A DNA stretch of 64,000 nt, taken from Clostridiales bacterium (GTDB lineage Bacteria > Bacillota > Clostridia > Oscillospirales > Oscillospiraceae). Numbering within the stretch: the first letter of the stretch is position 1; the number at the start of each line of letters is the position of its first letter. Under the pieces are notes generated by a model, which had not been told where the DNA came from, did no database searches, and worked only from the letters and a program-made list of their open reading frames with translations. The DNA lies in NCBI GenBank assembly GCA_029265975.1, contig JAJUGN010000001.1:62001-126000 (forward strand), given 5' to 3'. Below, one piece after another: positions 51,226 to 58,898 of this stretch. A program made the position numbers and the translations under genes.

Positions 51226-53949
51226 TTACGCCGTTTTCGTGCATGCCGCTTTGCTCTCTGCCTCTCTCTCGCCTGCCCTTGCTTCGACGAGTCCGTACTT
51301 CACTTTGATCCTGTCCAGCTTTTCCAGCATGGGCCGGGAAATGAACCACAGGAAGAAAACGGTTGCGGCTGCCTGCACAAGGTCAAACGGAAAGCCTGTA
51401 AGGTAAGCGGCTATGAACATCGGGAGCGTCGGGTGATCGTTATATTGAATAACAAACGACGGATTCATCAGACCGCCGTAAACAACAACCGCGGCAAGCC
51501 CCCCGAATATGCACAGAGACAGCCTGCTCCTGCGAAGAACGCCCTTCCGGAACAAAACGCCCGCGAAAAAACCTATGATTCCCATTGCGAACATCTGCCA
51601 CGGCGTCCACGGGCCCTGTCCGAACATCATGTTAGACGCCAGCATAGTCACGGCGCCGACAAGGAAACCGGACTCGCCTCCGAATGCGACGCCGGAAATG
51701 ATCACGATTGCCATTACCGGCTTGAACTGCGGCAGCATGAAGAACGCCGCCCTTCCGGCAACGCCCAGAGCGCAGAGGGCTGATATGACTACAAGCTCCC
51801 GTGCCTGCGGCTTCCTCCCCTCAAAAACGAGGAAAAACGGCAGCATGATTTCTAGTATGATTAGCAGCGAAATGAAGTAATATTTCCGGTCTCCAAACCA
51901 GAAAATCCCTACAAAGATTGTCATCGGTATGGCGACTAAAATCATCGCGGCCGCCGCTGCCGTTCTCTTTGAAAGCCTTCGCTGTCCGGCGGGAACCTGC
52001 TCGTTTTCGATCGGCTTTTCGCTCCTTCGGCTGACGGCCGCGCAGAGCGTTATAAACGCGGCGATAAAAACGCCGGGCAGCCACTTAGGTCCGCTTCCAG
52101 GCGGCCACGGCTCGAAAACGGATATCGCGGCGGCGGCGAGAGCTATCGCGCCCGTTGCCCCGGCCAGGAGCTTCCGCCAAGGCGGAAGCTTTTTTGTCTC
52201 TGTATGCGGCGCGGATTTTAACGCCCCGTCCGGTATTCCCGAAACCTCCGGAAGCGGCGCTTCCTCCGGAATGGTCGGCGCCGGCGGAGCCTTTCCGCCG
52301 CTGGCGACGATAATGTCCTCGTCGGTTACGGCCTCCGGCAGCAGGTGGCGCGCCATGCGGCTGGCGGCCGTAGTGTAAAAGCTGTTTCCCGAAAAAAAAG
52401 CCCGTGGCTTGTTCTCCGTGACGATTGAACCGTCAAAAAACAGCGCGCATCTGTGGGCATATTTCGCGCAAAACTCAATGTCGTGGCTCACCATTACAAC
52501 TGCAACGCCCCGGCGCAGAAGAGCATTCAGAATTTCAGCGAAAATCTGCTTAAACCCGGCGTCAAGACCTTTTGTCGGCTCGTCGAGCAGCAGGATTTCG
52601 GGGTCGAGCAGCAGGATTTTCGCCAGCGCGGCCCTCTGCTGCTCACCGCCGGAGAGATCAAAGGGATGGCGCTCCAGCAGTTCCTCCAGCCGGCACAGCC
52701 TGACAACATACGACAGACGGCGGTCATGTTCCTCCTTCGGGAGCTTTCGTCCCTTAATGATTTCATGCAAATCCTCGCGCACCGTCTTTTTCACGAACAG
52801 CGCCTGCGGATTCTGCGGAAGTACGCCGAGAAGATTGTCAAAAATATTTTTACCGCCCCTTAATTCCATGCCCTTGAGCAGGACTTTCCCCCGGTACGGT
52901 CTGTTTATTCCGGAAATGACCGAAAGCGTCGTTGTTTTGCCGGTTCCGTTTCCGCCCAGAACAGCCAAAAGCTCGCCTTTGTATGCTTTGAAGCTCAGTC
53001 CGCGCAGCACGTCCGGCAGATCCTTTTCGTATCTGAACCATACGTCCCTGAGCTCAACGACCGGCTCGCCGCGGCCGGTTTTCTCTGGTGCGGCCGCCGG
53101 AACCTCAGACAGTCTTCGCTCAGCCGCCAGCCCGTCGAGCCAGAGCCGCCCCTCACGGACGGTAACAGGGCAGCGTCCAGCGGAGGTAACGGCGGCGAAA
53201 ACGCGCATCGGGACAGGCATGGCTAGATACATTCCGTGCCCGTGCAAGCGCAGGCTCTCTCCGACCTCCCCCGGAGTGCCGTCGAATACAATTTTTCCGG
53301 AATCCATGACCAGCACTCGGTCGCTCATCGGGAAGACCTCCTCCAGCCGATGCTCCGTCATAATGACAGTCGTGCCCAGCTCGCGGTTGAGCTTGCCGAC
53401 TGTGGCGAGAAAATCTGCCGCGGCGATAGGATCAAGCTGACTTGTCGGCTCGTCGAGTATAAGGACCGAAGGCTGCATAGCCATGATCGACGCGAGATTC
53501 AAAAGCTGCTTCTGCCCGCCCGAAAGCTCCGTCACGCTCTTGTAAAACCAGTCCTGTATCCCGAAAAAGCTGGACATTTCGGCAACGCGACCGCGTATTG
53601 CAGGCGTATCCATGCCGAGACTCTCCAGGCCGAAGGCCAGCTCGTGCCATACCTTATCCGTCACAATTTGATTATCCGGATTTTGCTGCACGAAGCCTAT
53701 TTGCGCGCTCTGTTCCCGCCGGTCGATTTTGCTCAGCGGGCGGCCGCAAAAGATAATCTCGCCGCTCGATCTCCCGTGCGGGGTAAGCGCCGTCTTGAGA
53801 TGACGGAGAAGGGTCGATTTCCCGCAGCCGGACGGCCCCGTGAGAACCACAAACTCGCCCTGCCCCACTGAGAAACTCAGATTGTCCAGAGCCTTCCCTG
53901 TCTGCCCCGGGTAAGAAAAGGTCAGGTTGCTGATTTTGAAGCAGTCCAT
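51226..53949 (-). CDS. ECF transporter fusion: two ATPase domains (A, A') plus C-terminal S component
   Basis: Walker A GPSGCGKST and GGNGTGKTT; signatures LSGGQKQLL and LSGGEQQRAALAK; Walker B VLILDEPTSQLDP and ILLLDEPTKGLDAG; C-terminal ~300 aa polytopic with GESGFLVGAVTMLASNMMFGQGPWTPWQMFAMGIIGFFAG (S-component-like). Confidence 0.92.
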   Translation of the reverse strand: MDCFKISNLTFSYPGQTGKALDNLSFSVGQGEFVVLTGPSGCGKSTLLRHLKTALTPHGRSSGEIIFCGRPLSKIDRREQSAQIGFVQQNPDNQIVTDKVWHELAFGLESLGMDTPAIRGRVAEMSSFFGIQDWFYKSVTELSGGQKQLLNLASIMAMQPSVLILDEPTSQLDPIAAADFLATVGKLNRELGTTVIMTEHRLEEVFPMSDRVLVMDSGKIVFDGTPGEVGESLRLHGHGMYLAMPVPMRVFAAVTSAGRCPVTVREGRLWLDGLAAERRLSEVPAAAPEKTGRGEPVVELRDVWFRYEKDLPDVLRGLSFKAYKGELLAVLGGNGTGKTTTLSVISGINRPYRGKVLLKGMELRGGKNIFDNLLGVLPQNPQALFVKKTVREDLHEIIKGRKLPKEEHDRRLSYVVRLCRLEELLERHPFDLSGGEQQRAALAKILLLDPEILLLDEPTKGLDAGFKQIFAEILNALLRRGVAVVMVSHDIEFCAKYAHRCALFFDGSIVTENKPRAFFSGNSFYTTAASRMARHLLPEAVTDEDIIVASGGKAPPAPTIPEEAPLPEVSGIPDGALKSAPHTETKKLPPWRKLLAGATGAIALAAAAISVFEPWPPGSGPKWLPGVFIAAFITLCAAVSRRSEKPIENEQVPAGQRRLSKRTAAAAAMILVAIPMTIFVGIFWFGDRKYYFISLLIILEIMLPFFLVFEGRKPQARELVVISALCALGVAGRAAFFMLPQFKPVMAIVIISGVAFGGESGFLVGAVTMLASNMMFGQGPWTPWQMFAMGIIGFFAGVLFRKGVLRRSRLSLCIFGGLAAVVVYGGLMNPSFVIQYNDHPTLPMFIAAYLTGFPFDLVQAAATVFFLWFISRPMLEKLDRIKVKYGLVEARAGEREAESKAACTKTA

Positions 53950-54818
53950 TTTCTGTCCTCCGAAATATTTATAACGACAGGCGCGATGCAGAGCGAAAAA
54001 TACGCGAAAAATACGCTCAGCGTGAATGCGCCGGAGAAGACGCCCTTCATGGTCGGATAATAACGCCAGCTGAGCCCGCCGAGCAAGGCGCCGAGGACAA
54101 TATACGAACCGCAGAGCAGCAGGAAAACGAGCGCTTTGAGGTCGCGCTTGTCAAAGCGATATATAGAAAACGCCGTACGTCCGGGCAGACCGTATCCGCG
54201 GCTCTTCATGCTGTCCGCCGTTTCAATGGCGTTCTCAAGCGCCCATGTCACCATGATCGACAGGATGGTAAGCCCGTTTTTGGCGCGTTGCAGAACGCCG
54301 CCGCTCGACGCGTCGCGCCCGATGCACTTCTGCGCGTCGGAAACCACCCTGATCTGCGCTTTGAACTTTGGCACAAAGCGCAGCGTCATGGAGAGCAAAA
54401 GCGACATGGCCGGTATGAGGCGTCCGAAAAGATACACGAACTTGTCCGAAGTCATAACTGCGTTGTAGCAGGAAAACCATGATATGACTGCGACAAGCAT
54501 GGCCGCAGCCGAAATGCCGTAGGCAATAGACTCCAGCGTGAGCGGATTTCCGCTCGGCAGGTATGTTAAAATTGTCGCGCCCTTATGGCTGAAGGCCGGA
54601 TTTAATAGCGCCGCGAAAACAAACATCGGCAGCATACAGACAAGGCTGAAGCGCACGGCCTTCCGGCCGTTCAGATAGATGGAATAAGCTGTCGCTCCGA
54701 AAAGCGAAGCGGAAAGGCAAAAAGGATGTGTAAAAACCATCGAAAATGCAAGCACGAGCCCGAAATACAGGAAATTTATAAGCGGGTGATAGCTTGAAAA
54801 CGTGTCCCTGTTGACCAT
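53922..54818 (-). CDS. ECF transporter transmembrane T component
   Basis: CbiQ/EcfT-like: SSYHPLINFLYFGLVLAFSMVFTHP, ADSMKSRGYGLPGRTAFSIYRFDKRD; overlaps ECF fusion gene start. Confidence 0.92.
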   Translation of the reverse strand: MVNRDTFSSYHPLINFLYFGLVLAFSMVFTHPFCLSASLFGATAYSIYLNGRKAVRFSLVCMLPMFVFAALLNPAFSHKGATILTYLPSGNPLTLESIAYGISAAAMLVAVISWFSCYNAVMTSDKFVYLFGRLIPAMSLLLSMTLRFVPKFKAQIRVVSDAQKCIGRDASSGGVLQRAKNGLTILSIMVTWALENAIETADSMKSRGYGLPGRTAFSIYRFDKRDLKALVFLLLCGSYIVLGALLGGLSWRYYPTMKGVFSGAFTLSVFFAYFSLCIAPVVINISEDRKWTASKSAT

Positions 54819-54824
54819 TTTGCC

Positions 54825-55763
54825 TCACGACCCTACGGCATAGTAGCCGCCGACATCTATTCCGAGGTTGCAGGTATAGACCCACTCCACGACATCGCCC
54901 TCTTTAAGCTGATATCTTGAGCATCCGTAATTCGGAAACCAGCCGTTGACCCTGTACATCCAGCCGGACAGCTCGCCGCAGTCGAACTCGTACAGGTTGT
55001 TGATGCCCTCGATGTATACCGAGTTGTACATTGGCGTGTTCCTGAATTCCATGTGTATCTTTGCCTTTTTCATTTCTCTCTGAAGCACGTTAAAAACGCT
55101 CTCCCCCTTATAAAAAGTGACGGTTTTTGCGGCGAATATGACTCCGTCCCTGGGCACGAGCTCCCATTTGTTCTTATCCAGCCAGGACATATTCCGCAAA
55201 ATTGTATCGCAGCGCACGGATAGAGTGCAGGTGTGGACCTCGTCGGTTATTACCGCGTTTTGCGGCTCAACCGGAACAGGCTTTCCCGATGGAACGGGAT
55301 CGGTAAAATATTTGTCTTTTCCGGTGGAGGGATTTATTTCCATGCCCTGGGATTTGGAATACTCCTCAGAGCCTTTTTCCACCCCTTCGGACGATTCTCC
55401 TCCGGACAGGGCCCTCGCCGTCTCCAGTTTCCCGTCGGCGGTGAGAGGCCGCCCCTTTCCGGAGTCCGGAGCAGCCGCCTTTAACGCGGACTCTTCGCCC
55501 GGCTTCGCTGTGTTTATGTCCGGAACAGGTGCTGCCGAAGCGGAGGATTCGGACGCTCCCGCCCCGGACTTGGTCTCCTCGCGCCCGGCGGCGGAGGGCT
55601 CGGCCTTAGCGGGCGCGGAGACGGTTCCTTTGGATACGCTCCACCCCCTCAGGCCCGGAGCGTTCCCGCCGTACCAAAAAGAAAATCCCAGTACCGCAAG
55701 AAGCAGTATCGGCGCTAATATTTTCCATTTATAATTCTTCCTCATATTTTTCATGTATGTCAC
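54825..55763 (-). CDS. Membrane-anchored DUF4430 (transcobalamin C-terminal-like) protein
   Basis: N-terminal TM; ~120-aa Ala/Ser/Gly/Glu/Pro-rich linker; SVYIEGINNLYEFDCGELSGWMYRVNGWFPNYGCSRYQLKEGDVVEWVYTCNLGIDVG typical of DUF4430. Confidence 0.9.
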   Translation of the reverse strand: MTYMKNMRKNYKWKILAPILLLAVLGFSFWYGGNAPGLRGWSVSKGTVSAPAKAEPSAAGREETKSGAGASESSASAAPVPDINTAKPGEESALKAAAPDSGKGRPLTADGKLETARALSGGESSEGVEKGSEEYSKSQGMEINPSTGKDKYFTDPVPSGKPVPVEPQNAVITDEVHTCTLSVRCDTILRNMSWLDKNKWELVPRDGVIFAAKTVTFYKGESVFNVLQREMKKAKIHMEFRNTPMYNSVYIEGINNLYEFDCGELSGWMYRVNGWFPNYGCSRYQLKEGDVVEWVYTCNLGIDVGGYYAVGS

Positions 55764-55764
55764 C

Positions 55765-57426
55765 TTACAGCAAATTCGCTTTTCCCAGCAGGTTGAAAAT
55801 CATCTGCGCGACCTCCGCTCTCGTTATGGGCAAAAGCGGGCGTATCTCAAGATCGCTTTGAGAAAGGATGTCGCTTGCGTAGCAGAAAGCCAGCGAAGGA
55901 CGCGCCCACGCCGAAGCCGTAACATAGTCCTCAAACTGCGCCAGTATGTCGCGCACAGCCCCGTCGTCAATCGCCGTATCCATGCCGCAGAGCTTTGCCG
56001 CGCGCGCCACCATAACGGCCGCTTCCTGCCTGGTAATCGTACCCCCCGGATTAAAGGCAGTATCCGAAACGCCTTTTATGATGCCGTAGCTGCTTGCAGT
56101 ATCCACAAATCCGGCAAACCACTCCGACGAAGGCACGTCGGAGAACGCTCCGCGCGTTTTTGCCGCAAGCCCCAGAGCTTTAACTGCGACAGCGGCAAAT
56201 TCAGCGCGGGTCATTGTGCTGTCCGGCCTGAAAGTGCCGTCTTCGTAGCCGCTGATTATACCGCGAGACGCCAGCGCCTGTATCGCGGAAATCGAGTCGC
56301 TGAACACCACGTCGTCGAAGGTGATGCCGGGCTTGCTTATTGGCACGGCTCTTACGTCGGCGTTTTTGTTTTCAAGCCCTTTGCCGGACGCAAAGCCGCT
56401 TTTGCCCGAGGCTGAAATATTTATGGCGTCGCTCATGCGGTAGAGGCTTTTTTTGCCGTCCCGCTGACGCATGGCGGCTACAATTCCGTAAAAGCCCTGT
56501 TCCGTCGCCATCTGATTTGAACCGCTGCCGTCGGCGGTATGCCGGAACCCTTTGCCGGGCAGGTAAAAGGTCATCAGGTTATCCAGTAGCGTGCAGCCGT
56601 TTTTCACAAATCTTGGGTCGTCAAGAGGGATACCAAGCTCCGTGAGCGCGACAATAATTTGTACGACGCTTTCGGAGTTGGGCTTGCCCCAGCTGGAGTA
56701 CCCGCCCTTTTCATTCTGCTTTTTGGACATGCATTTCAGGGCTTCTTCGGTTGCTTTCCTGACGTCGTCTCTGTACTGGTACTTCGCCAGCGCCTGAAGC
56801 GCCATACCGGTGATATCCGGGTCGGCCACCGAGTCCCCCGAGGTAGCGGCTGCGGTGCCTCCGAAGAGTGAGAACCCCCCGTCCGGCAGCTGGCAGGCCA
56901 GAATGCGGTCTATGTACATGTCGCGCGTCGCCTGAGTCTTTGCTTCCGGGTTTTTCGGCATCTCATAATTGCCCGCATCCAGGGCGATTAAAGCCCAAAT
57001 CGGGCCGTTGAGTCCCTGCCAGATAGTCTTTTCGTAATCCCCCAACGGCGTCAGAAGGTTGTATCCAGCCACGTTCCTGGGGTCTTTGCCTATTGCGGTC
57101 AGCGCAAGAACCACCCGGGAGTACTCGGTGTACTTTTTCTGGTGAAGGACTCCCTTGCAGGCCGAGACGTATCTTTCCACGACGGCGTAGTACTTTTGGT
57201 AGTATTCCTCCGGCACGCTGCAGCCGCTGCGTGCCAGTCCCAGCACAGCCCATTCCCCGCCTATGGAGCCCACCTGCGGCTCTTTTGCGGTTTTATAGAC
57301 ATAAGCCGCCGTATCGCTGACAGCTGCGTTCAGCGCGTCATCCGAAGCGGCCAGCGCGGAAAAGCCAGCCTCTGTCATAAGAAGCAGCGCCAGCAGAAGC
57401 GCCGCCCCCCTCTTTTGGATATGCAT
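55765..57426 (-). CDS. Secreted prenyltransferase/transcobalamin-like alpha-alpha barrel protein with three C-terminal SLH domains
   Basis: Signal peptide; repeated helical motifs (QLPDGGFSLFGG...DPDITGMALQALAKY; NEKGGYSSWGKPNSESVVQIIVALTELGI; FRHTADGSGSNQMATEQGFYGIVAAM); SLH motifs FRPDSTMTRAEFAAV, FNPGGTITRQEAAVM, LPITRAEVAQM. Confidence 0.9.
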   Translation of the reverse strand: MHIQKRGAALLLALLLMTEAGFSALAASDDALNAAVSDTAAYVYKTAKEPQVGSIGGEWAVLGLARSGCSVPEEYYQKYYAVVERYVSACKGVLHQKKYTEYSRVVLALTAIGKDPRNVAGYNLLTPLGDYEKTIWQGLNGPIWALIALDAGNYEMPKNPEAKTQATRDMYIDRILACQLPDGGFSLFGGTAAATSGDSVADPDITGMALQALAKYQYRDDVRKATEEALKCMSKKQNEKGGYSSWGKPNSESVVQIIVALTELGIPLDDPRFVKNGCTLLDNLMTFYLPGKGFRHTADGSGSNQMATEQGFYGIVAAMRQRDGKKSLYRMSDAINISASGKSGFASGKGLENKNADVRAVPISKPGITFDDVVFSDSISAIQALASRGIISGYEDGTFRPDSTMTRAEFAAVAVKALGLAAKTRGAFSDVPSSEWFAGFVDTASSYGIIKGVSDTAFNPGGTITRQEAAVMVARAAKLCGMDTAIDDGAVRDILAQFEDYVTASAWARPSLAFCYASDILSQSDLEIRPLLPITRAEVAQMIFNLLGKANLL

Positions 57427-57921
57427 ATTAATTCGCCTCCCTGTTTTTTGGACTGAGTAAAGCCGGTAAGCGTCTTTTTTACGGAAATCGGTTTGTCCGG
57501 CAGATTCATGGGTGATATTTGCTTTTTATTCACTTCTTTTTATTGCTTTCAGCCTGATAAAACGAAAAAAGAGGCCCGGCGGCTTCGGGACAAGTATCCC
57601 GCTCCGCCAAACCTCCGTTTTTCGGTCGGCTTCCGGCTCAAAAACGATGCCGTAGCTATTTAGTTTCGCACCTGAAGGCTGTGCCGGCTTTAATTCCGGA
57701 CAAAGCCGCTCTGTTTTATCAAAGCGCACGCTCACATGGCGCCGGGCTCAGAATATCGGTTCCGTTTCGCCTCTCATGGCCTTAAATCCTTTACGGCTGA
57801 GGAAAAATCCCCATCCGGTTTCATCGTGTGACAGGTCCATTCGTCATGATCGCTGAAAAATGCCGTCCCGGTAACGCGGTACTCACCCGCTTTGCCTGCC
57901 GTGTACTGCCCAAAATATTAC
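57427..57921 (-). promoter_or_regulatory. Long structured 5' leader, candidate riboswitch/attenuator of unresolved class
   Basis: ~490 nt between a consensus promoter and the ATG, with internal terminator preceded by AGCCGGAAGCCGACC that can pair with the terminator 5' arm. Confidence 0.55.
57565..57615 (-). terminator. Intrinsic terminator inside the 5' leader of the SLH/barrel gene
   Basis: Minus strand GAGGTTTGGCGG...CCGCCGGGCCTC (12 bp incl. three G-U) then TTTTTT. Confidence 0.8.
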
Positions 57922-57927
57922 AGATAT

Positions 57928-57956
57928 ATTCTATCCCGTCGCGGTGAAATTGTCAA
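57928..57956 (-). promoter_or_regulatory. Sigma-A promoter for the SLH/DUF4430/ECF operon
   Basis: Minus strand TTGACA (57956-57951), 17-nt spacer, TAGAAT (57933-57928). Confidence 0.78.
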
Positions 57957-58025
57957 TACGCGCAAGACGGCATTTGAACCGGCAAATATCCCTTATAAAA
58001 AATTAATGAAAATCGAATTTTTCTC

Positions 58026-58056
58026 TTGACTTTGCCCTTAGGTAAAGCCTTACACT
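58026..58056 (+). promoter_or_regulatory. MerR-type promoter/operator with 19-bp spacer
   Basis: TTGACT (58026-58031), 19-nt spacer, TACACT (58051-58056); dyad CTTTGCC-CTTA-GGTAAAG lies within the spacer. Confidence 0.72.
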
Positions 58057-58097
58057 GTAATCAGAACATGTTCTTATAACTTTCAGGCGGTGGAAAA

Positions 58098-58898
58098 ATG
58101 CTTACGATAGGGGAATTCTCGAAAATCAGCAGGGTGTCTTCCAAGACTCTCCGCTACTATGACCAGATAGGACTTCTGAAGCCTGGATATGTTAGCTCGG
58201 ATTCCGGATACAGGTATTACGAGGTTTCCCAGCTTCGCACCATGCTTTTGATTTCAAGGCTGAAGCAGTATCAGTTTTCGCTGCCTGAAATTGCCGCGGT
58301 AATATCGAAAAATGACGACAGCTATTTAAAAACGCTGATTCTCTTAAAAAAGAACCAGCTTAAATCGCAAATCAGCAGTCAGCAGGCGATCCTGAAGCAG
58401 ATGGAGCAGGACATTGAACAAATTGAAAGGTGTGAAAACTTCATGAATACAGAATATATGGTAAAAACCGTCGTCTTTGAACCGGTAAATATTTATTCCA
58501 TAAGAAAAAACATGGGGCTCAAAAATTTTGAGGAAGCCTTCGGAGAGCTTTTTGCGGGTCTGGCGCGAAAACGCCTGAAGCCCGCCGGTCCCTCTCTTTC
58601 ACTCTATCACAGCGAGGATTTCAACCCCGAATGCACGGACATCGAGGTCGGCGTCGTAGTCTCCGAAAGCAAGGGGGACGGAATCAGAAGGCTTGATCCC
58701 GGCCTCTGCTGCTTTGCAACGAGGATAGGAGCTTATGACGATTTCACGGCTTGCTATGCGGCCCTGGCGGAGTGGACGGAACGCGAGGGCTATGTGATTT
58801 CAGGACCCCCGATGGAGCTCTATGTAAAGGGCTGCGACAACAACGTAAGCCCTGATGAGTATGTTACGGAGATTTATTACCCGATAAAAAAGAAATAA
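58098..58898 (+). CDS. MerR family regulator with GyrI-like C-terminal effector domain
   Basis: MLTIGEFSKISRVSSKTLRYYDQIGLLKPGYVSSDSGYRYYEVSQL; C-terminal GPPMELYVKGCDNNVSPDEYVTEIYYPI. Confidence 0.93.
   Translation: MLTIGEFSKISRVSSKTLRYYDQIGLLKPGYVSSDSGYRYYEVSQLRTMLLISRLKQYQFSLPEIAAVISKNDDSYLKTLILLKKNQLKSQISSQQAILKQMEQDIEQIERCENFMNTEYMVKTVVFEPVNIYSIRKNMGLKNFEEAFGELFAGLARKRLKPAGPSLSLYHSEDFNPECTDIEVGVVVSESKGDGIRRLDPGLCCFATRIGAYDDFTACYAALAEWTEREGYVISGPPMELYVKGCDNNVSPDEYVTEIYYPIKKK

Follow-up and report, generated by a model that had tools for sequence, protein, structure and literature searches.

A conserved hairpin overlapping the terminator of a corrinoid-type uptake operon, and the small DUF2292 (YezD/OscA) protein as its candidate partner

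Background

The RAT hairpins of the BglG/LicT systems are about 24-29 nt long, contain one or more asymmetric internal loops, overlap the 5' arm of a terminator and are stabilised by a dedicated RNA-binding protein. The hairpin described here, from a window of 64,000 nt (the whole stretch of Clostridiales DNA that was analysed), resembles them in its small size, its asymmetric internal loop and its overlap with a terminator 5' arm. It differs from RAT, by description, in that it has a sequence and loops of its own and that its candidate partner, DUF2292, is a protein of about 50 amino acids with neither CAT nor PTS domains; its targets are sulfur and corrinoid genes rather than sugar genes. 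A second described group consists of the ANTAR proteins (EutV/NasR/AmiR), whose targets are two tandem hairpins with hexanucleotide loops that carry A at position 1 and G at position 4, and which in the eut genes of Enterococcus are likewise coupled to B12 (PMC3369931). Protein-dependent antitermination by a hairpin that overlaps a terminator, as proposed here, is common to both, but the present element is a single hairpin with an internal loop and an A-rich loop of 4-5 nt, and when a 4-bp stem was required the ANTAR dual hairpin was missing in 12 of 13 sites, including the window. The window element would thus work like LicT/RAT and ANTAR antitermination while appearing, as far as tested (for RAT by description), to be a member of neither.

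The protein linked to the hairpin belongs to PF10055 (DUF2292, or YezD/OscA; NF033785), and an RNA target for this family is a new claim. The NCBIfam match to OscA (NF033785, sulfur starvation response protein) lies below the model cut-off, and we found no solved structure related to DUF2292 and, in the open-licence literature, no molecular function assigned to it. According to PMC2996968 (citing Viti 2009), oscA and sbp, the gene of a sulfate-binding protein, are transcribed as a single unit in Pseudomonas corrugata; oscA is chromate-inducible, and resistance to Cr(VI) depends on it. oscA-sbp is also reported to respond to both chromate and sulfate starvation (PMC2996968); this response and the name OscA fit a sulfur regulator.

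Anatomy of the leader and of the operon behind it

The operon and its leader, all on the minus strand, comprise the following features.

57928-57956, minus: putative sigma-70-type promoter, TTGACA-N17-TAGAAT (consensus scan, 11 of 12 matches)
57633-57921, minus: 5' part of the leader, no recognised conserved element (Rfam and comparison with fetched loci)
57609-57632, minus: antiterminator hairpin, AAGCC-GA-CCG-AAAAA-CGG-A-GGUUU (covariance models R2 and R3)
57571-57615, minus: intrinsic terminator stem-loop with a 12-bp stem (read from the sequence; -26.7 kcal/mol from 57613 on)
57565-57570, minus: T6 tract of the terminator (read from the sequence)
55765-57426, minus: gene 1, secreted protein of 553 aa with C-terminal SLH domains (PF00395, E 4.2e-33)
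54825-55763, minus: gene 2, DUF4430 protein with a transcobalamin C-terminal-like domain (PF14478, E 7.3e-19)
53922-54818, minus: gene 3, EcfT/CbiQ-type transmembrane protein (PF02361, E 1.8e-6)
51226-53949, minus: gene 4, fused ECF transporter of 907 aa (PF00005 twice, PF07155 and PF12822; TIGR04520)

An initial annotation made from the sequence had placed a leader with a consensus promoter and a strong terminator before a corrinoid-type uptake operon, and all three elements are present where it put them. Since promoter-like sites are no more numerous than in shuffled sequences (two against 2.1 expected by chance, not significant), the promoter call rests on the 11/12 quality of the match and on its position. 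The terminator lies about 140 nt 5' of the operon ATG (57426, minus strand). The 907-aa ECF protein combines two ATPase domains and an S component in a single chain. A divergent MerR/GyrI-like regulator gene occupies 58098-58898 (plus strand); it has a MerR-type promoter, TTGACT-N19-TACACT, at 58026-58056, with the dyad CTTTGCCCTTAGGTAAAG inside the long spacer, and the palindrome AGAACATGTTCT stands at 58063-58074.

The signal in the leader is confined to its 3' 70 nt. Folding of the whole leader is only mildly more stable than that of shuffled sequences (z -1.83), the 3' 87 nt are the sole part that recurred in a DNA search of 301 family genomes, and comparison with the fetched loci revealed no conservation across the roughly 290 nt 5' of the hairpin. 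That stretch between promoter and hairpin (57633-57921) has no recognised function; a 29-nt, 93% match of the middle of the leader to another genome (G046, L009) is at chance level over 301 genomes.

The initial annotation had also noted that GCCGACC can pair with GGTTTGGC in the terminator 5' arm. This pairing is the hairpin at 57632-57609, and it is conserved far beyond chance. It folds as (((((..(((.....))).))))), with five outer base pairs, a 2x1 internal loop (GA/A), three inner base pairs and an A-rich loop, at -6.7 kcal/mol when taken alone. The 5' arm of the terminator begins within its 3' strand (GGUUU), and because one strand is common to both, hairpin and terminator are mutually exclusive; given -6.7 against -26.7 kcal/mol, termination is the default unless the hairpin is held. 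Folding of the relatives gave the same sharing of a strand, with the common fold RAACY-GA-CCG-AAMAA-CGG-A-GGUUY, where the terminator starts with the hairpin 3' strand, GGUUY. The covariance model R2 matched the window at 57605-57633 (40.0 bits, E 7e-9), its sole significant match there, and the hairpin-only model R3 matched the hairpin with E 0.0085. The window thus contains a hairpin of the form Y-GA-inner stem-A-rich loop-inner stem-A-GG whose 3' strand doubles as the 5' arm of an intrinsic terminator, and its genome (G000) contains a DUF2292 gene. The leader is confirmed as a real transcription attenuator, of a class absent from Rfam.

Recurrence of the hairpin from the genome to the phylum

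About 100 sites of this hairpin were observed, in the window's own genome and genus, in further families of its order and in the phylum at large. In the 301 family genomes the DNA search recovered the 3' part of the leader once more in the same genome (contig C65, position 66417) and in one congener. A pattern search gave 16 places, one of which (L023) was due to chance, being a hairpin-like word within coding sequence with no terminator. The other 15, in which CYGACYGAAMAAYGGAGGTTY is followed by a terminator, are near-identical copies in the same genus and family, nearly all of them downstream of same-strand RF00174 (cobalamin) riboswitches, and the genes 3' of them encode secreted surface proteins, periplasmic binding proteins and orthologs of window gene 1.

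The covariance model R1, constructed from these 15 own-family copies, nearly all with a CCG/CGG inner stem, extended the set to other families within the order, where the inner stems are CGG/CCG, CTG/CAG and CCGG/CCGG and each site is located directly 3' of the stop codon of a short PF10055 ORF. L054 and other weak R1 matches within genes were attributed to chance. Inspection of the 3' flanks of DUF2292 genes yielded more hairpins, each being the best R1 match of its locus. In the resulting alignment (A5) we counted 16 cells with double-sided pair changes against 4.6 after shuffling (0 of 500 shuffles reached this), a covariation that leans towards structure because the alignment was fitted to the R1 model. 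A MAFFT alignment (A6), which misplaced the 3-bp and 4-bp forms, was left out of the pair counts.

At the level of the phylum we used 88 DUF2292 genes, from a sample of 289 genomes plus the earlier searches, and a descriptor with at least three outer pairs, the GA/A internal loop and three to five inner pairs. It matched within 180 nt 3' of the gene in 36 of the 88 cases, as opposed to three on the reverse strand, four upstream, one further downstream and about four in shuffled sequences. The consensus near these genes is YCY-GA-CCRG-ACAA-CYGG-A-GGCY, and at 29 of 33 sites downstream of DUF2292 the hairpin 3' strand is also part of a terminator. Alignment A7 had double-sided changes at eight of nine pairs (39 cells against 13.2). 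Since the A7 sites were chosen for pairing, a cleaner test is offered by the outer pairs that the search did not demand: out of 46 sites, the third forms in 36 and the fourth in 34, as compared with an expectation of about 17. Compensatory changes occur in both stems.

Linkage to DUF2292 and to riboswitches

DUF2292 was found in 17 of 396 genomes of the order, and all genomes with the motif that were tested have it, except G024, where the hairpin is present and DUF2292 was not found (the assembly may be incomplete), and G309, where the match lies inside a gene. The hairpin often starts 3-30 nt past the DUF2292 stop codon.

For a genome-level comparison we used R3, which models the hairpin without the terminator, at E<=0.01. 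It matched 25 of 40 DUF2292-positive genomes (72 sites), as opposed to none of 40 and three of 40 DUF2292-negative ones (3/80). Two of the three negative-genome matches are weak (E 0.003 and 0.009), lie within long genes and are ascribed to chance. The third (L235, at G729:C48:44724-44749; E 1.7e-5) has a terminator and follows an unannotated ORF of 59 aa that reads ...YATLTFEIQDGWPVGGDIKEKFKIP, which is YezD-like and was left unscored by the Pfam model. A RusA-like gene lies close to this locus, which probably belongs to a prophage and may represent a phage-borne version of the switch. Because some training sites of R3 came from the positive genomes, the cleanest evidence is provided by sites away from DUF2292 genes, where 39 of 41 matches had a terminator built on the hairpin 3' strand; random positions had one in 49 of 410 cases (12%). 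No hairpin was detected at E<=0.01 in 15 of the 40 positive genomes, so certain members of the family must work in another way or through sites that have diverged.

The protein core of DUF2292 is conserved, and its tail type matches the hairpin type: the inner stem has 3 bp in 8 of 11 cases with a KKS tail and at least 4 bp in 19 of 21 cases with an EKxR tail (p 5.6e-4, by a statistic that ignores kinship). Tandem DUF2292 domains in one protein of about 130 aa, ending in DGEGI or DGDGI, were observed at four loci (L137, L143, L145 and L146), and two of the genomes with such proteins are rich in hairpins, with six in G682 and seven in G826. Two further likenesses were noticed, one between the C-terminus of DUF2292 and CsrA, the other between ACGGA and a CsrA site; neither carries weight in the argument.

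Several loci have a cobalamin (RF00174) or SAM (RF00162) riboswitch 5' of either the DUF2292 gene or the hairpin, the latter being a separate element that is part of neither aptamer. In Cytobacillus spongiae the order is SAM riboswitch, yezD, hairpin with terminator, and the PAPS reductase gene cysH; among the window's relatives cobalamin riboswitches hold the position of the SAM riboswitch. The window's own genome has two hairpins, one in the window and one at C65:66435. Its DUF2292 gene (C65:76842-76928; PF10055, E 6.9e-6) stands solitary behind a cobalamin riboswitch (C65:76394-76610), the next long gene being on the opposite strand, and inspection of its 3' flank revealed no hairpin of its own. 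In two other genomes, the loci with orthologs of gene 1 (66% identity in G184, 64% in G220) and gene 2 (57% and 58%, respectively) hold a B12 riboswitch, DUF2292 and the hairpin together, although the G184 locus spans two contigs. The simplest history of the window operon is that it retained the hairpin alone and came under control in trans.

A regulon dominated by sulfur metabolism

The genes behind the distant sites include cysK, sulfate adenylyltransferase (sat), APS kinase (cysC), metK, O-acetylhomoserine sulfhydrylase, and the binding protein and permease of a sulfate ABC transporter, as well as nifB-like radical SAM proteins, URO-D/MtaA-type methyltransferases and NMT1-type binding proteins. 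They point to a regulon, mostly of sulfur metabolism, of which we found no prior description. Among the loci fetched around distant sites only one has a SAM riboswitch, and no other Rfam riboswitch was matched in the remainder. Both the RNA element and the regulon are well supported.

Several individual loci may be mentioned here. In two genomes (L226 and L216) metK is preceded by the hairpin-terminator, which takes the place of any recognised SAM riboswitch. Hairpins also occur before nifB-like radical SAM genes and a Nitro_FeMo-Co protein (L215, L217, L219 and L195), extending the sulfur regulon to metal-cofactor genes, and a RAGATH-18 RNA (RF03064, at L223:277-339) lies near a hairpin-controlled O-acetylhomoserine sulfhydrylase gene.

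Proposed mechanism

Taken as a whole, the observations are in our view probably best explained by an attenuator whose hairpin is stabilised by a DUF2292 protein, resulting in read-through. Left without help, the terminator at 57571-57615 would form and transcription would end before the SLH/DUF4430/ECF operon. A small RNA-binding protein, for which the DUF2292 protein encoded at C65:76842-76928 is the most likely candidate, would stabilise the hairpin at 57609-57632, weak alone, and RNA polymerase would then read through. With a cobalamin riboswitch immediately in front of its gene, the DUF2292 protein should be made when corrinoid is scarce; both hairpin loci of the genome (the window operon and C65:66435) would then be switched on in trans. 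Riboswitches that control DUF2292 are normally ON when their ligand is scarce, so that DUF2292 would reinforce the induction of genes for uptake.

We infer that DUF2292 is the binder from its linkage to the hairpin, their co-occurrence, the G729 case and the match between tail and hairpin subtypes, which all point to this family; shared ancestry could partly account for the co-occurrence and the matched subtypes. That binding gives read-through is likewise suggested by anatomy only: since the hairpin excludes the terminator, a protein that binds it should have this effect. The initial annotation had favoured a ligand-OFF switch, and factor-dependent antitermination, ON when the factor binds, reads better for a hairpin that is common to sulfur operons and co-occurs with a small protein family.

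Alternative explanations

One may also consider that the hairpin is indeed a protein-dependent antiterminator, but that another protein of the pathway binds it, DUF2292 being a co-regulated companion, such as an enzyme helper, frequently found alongside the site. The DUF2292-positive genomes that lack the hairpin, and the one genome (G024) with the opposite combination, would both be accommodated in this way. Nevertheless, we consider it unlikely, because presence and absence of the hairpin track DUF2292, the hairpin is mostly found right where the DUF2292 gene ends, a position that would suit a factor regulating itself, a hairpin match revealed a YezD-like ORF overlooked by the family model, and protein and hairpin subtypes match.

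The frequent location of the hairpin just after the DUF2292 stop codon would also be expected if the ORF were a leader peptide, in which translation up to that codon picks the fold and the protein itself is irrelevant. Yet no such ORF precedes the 41 distant matches or the site in the window, while nearly all of these have hairpin and terminator; DUF2292 also stands alone, as in the window's own genome, and the core of the protein is conserved. We therefore regard a leader peptide as very unlikely.

Very little room is left for the idea that the leader of about 490 nt harbours a new small-molecule aptamer or a divergent cobalamin riboswitch, even though the orthologous operons lie in B12-riboswitch loci and 290 nt upstream are unexplained. 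A resemblance to a B12 box had been noted upstream of the terminator; since a search of 57400-58100 against Rfam gave zero matches to any family even at E<=10, whereas the genome holds six clear, normal RF00174 riboswitches elsewhere (best E 4.3e-27), this resemblance is coincidental. Moreover, nothing is conserved 5' of the hairpin, and the conserved unit is 24 nt, which leaves no room for a B12 aptamer, and also serves sulfur genes, most of whose loci have no known riboswitch. Of the suggested divergent cobalamin riboswitch or new class, what stands is a class outside Rfam, and what falls is the riboswitch; both the Rfam search and the comparison of homologous leaders, which the initial annotation had proposed, point to a new element. 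The link of the window operon to B12 is real but indirect, as the hairpins of its relatives lie 3' of RF00174 and its own candidate factor lies behind one. Finally, that the hairpin is a mere ornament of an ordinary terminator, which would be strong enough to work alone, can be practically dismissed, since the internal loop and A-rich loop are conserved, compensatory changes include the 5' strand outside the terminator stem, and the hairpin is tied to one protein family and two pathways.

Conclusions

Antitermination by a DUF2292 protein thus remains our preferred reading of the leader. More broadly, it seems fairly likely that YezD/OscA is a new family of very small RNA-binding antiterminators, which in many genomes of the phylum governs a sulfur-assimilation regulon through a 24-nt hairpin, and that in the lineage of the window this system was transferred to the uptake of corrinoids, the protein itself being under the control of a B12 riboswitch. 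DUF2292/YezD/OscA, a sulfur-starvation gene of unassigned function, thereby gains a specific candidate RNA target, an element new to Rfam, together with a regulon that comprises cysteine, methionine, sulfate, SAM synthetase and nifB-like genes and corrinoid uptake. If this is true, a riboswitch reaches other operons through an RNA-binding protein, and control of an antiterminator protein would be the route by which a cis-acting riboswitch extends its influence to distant operons.
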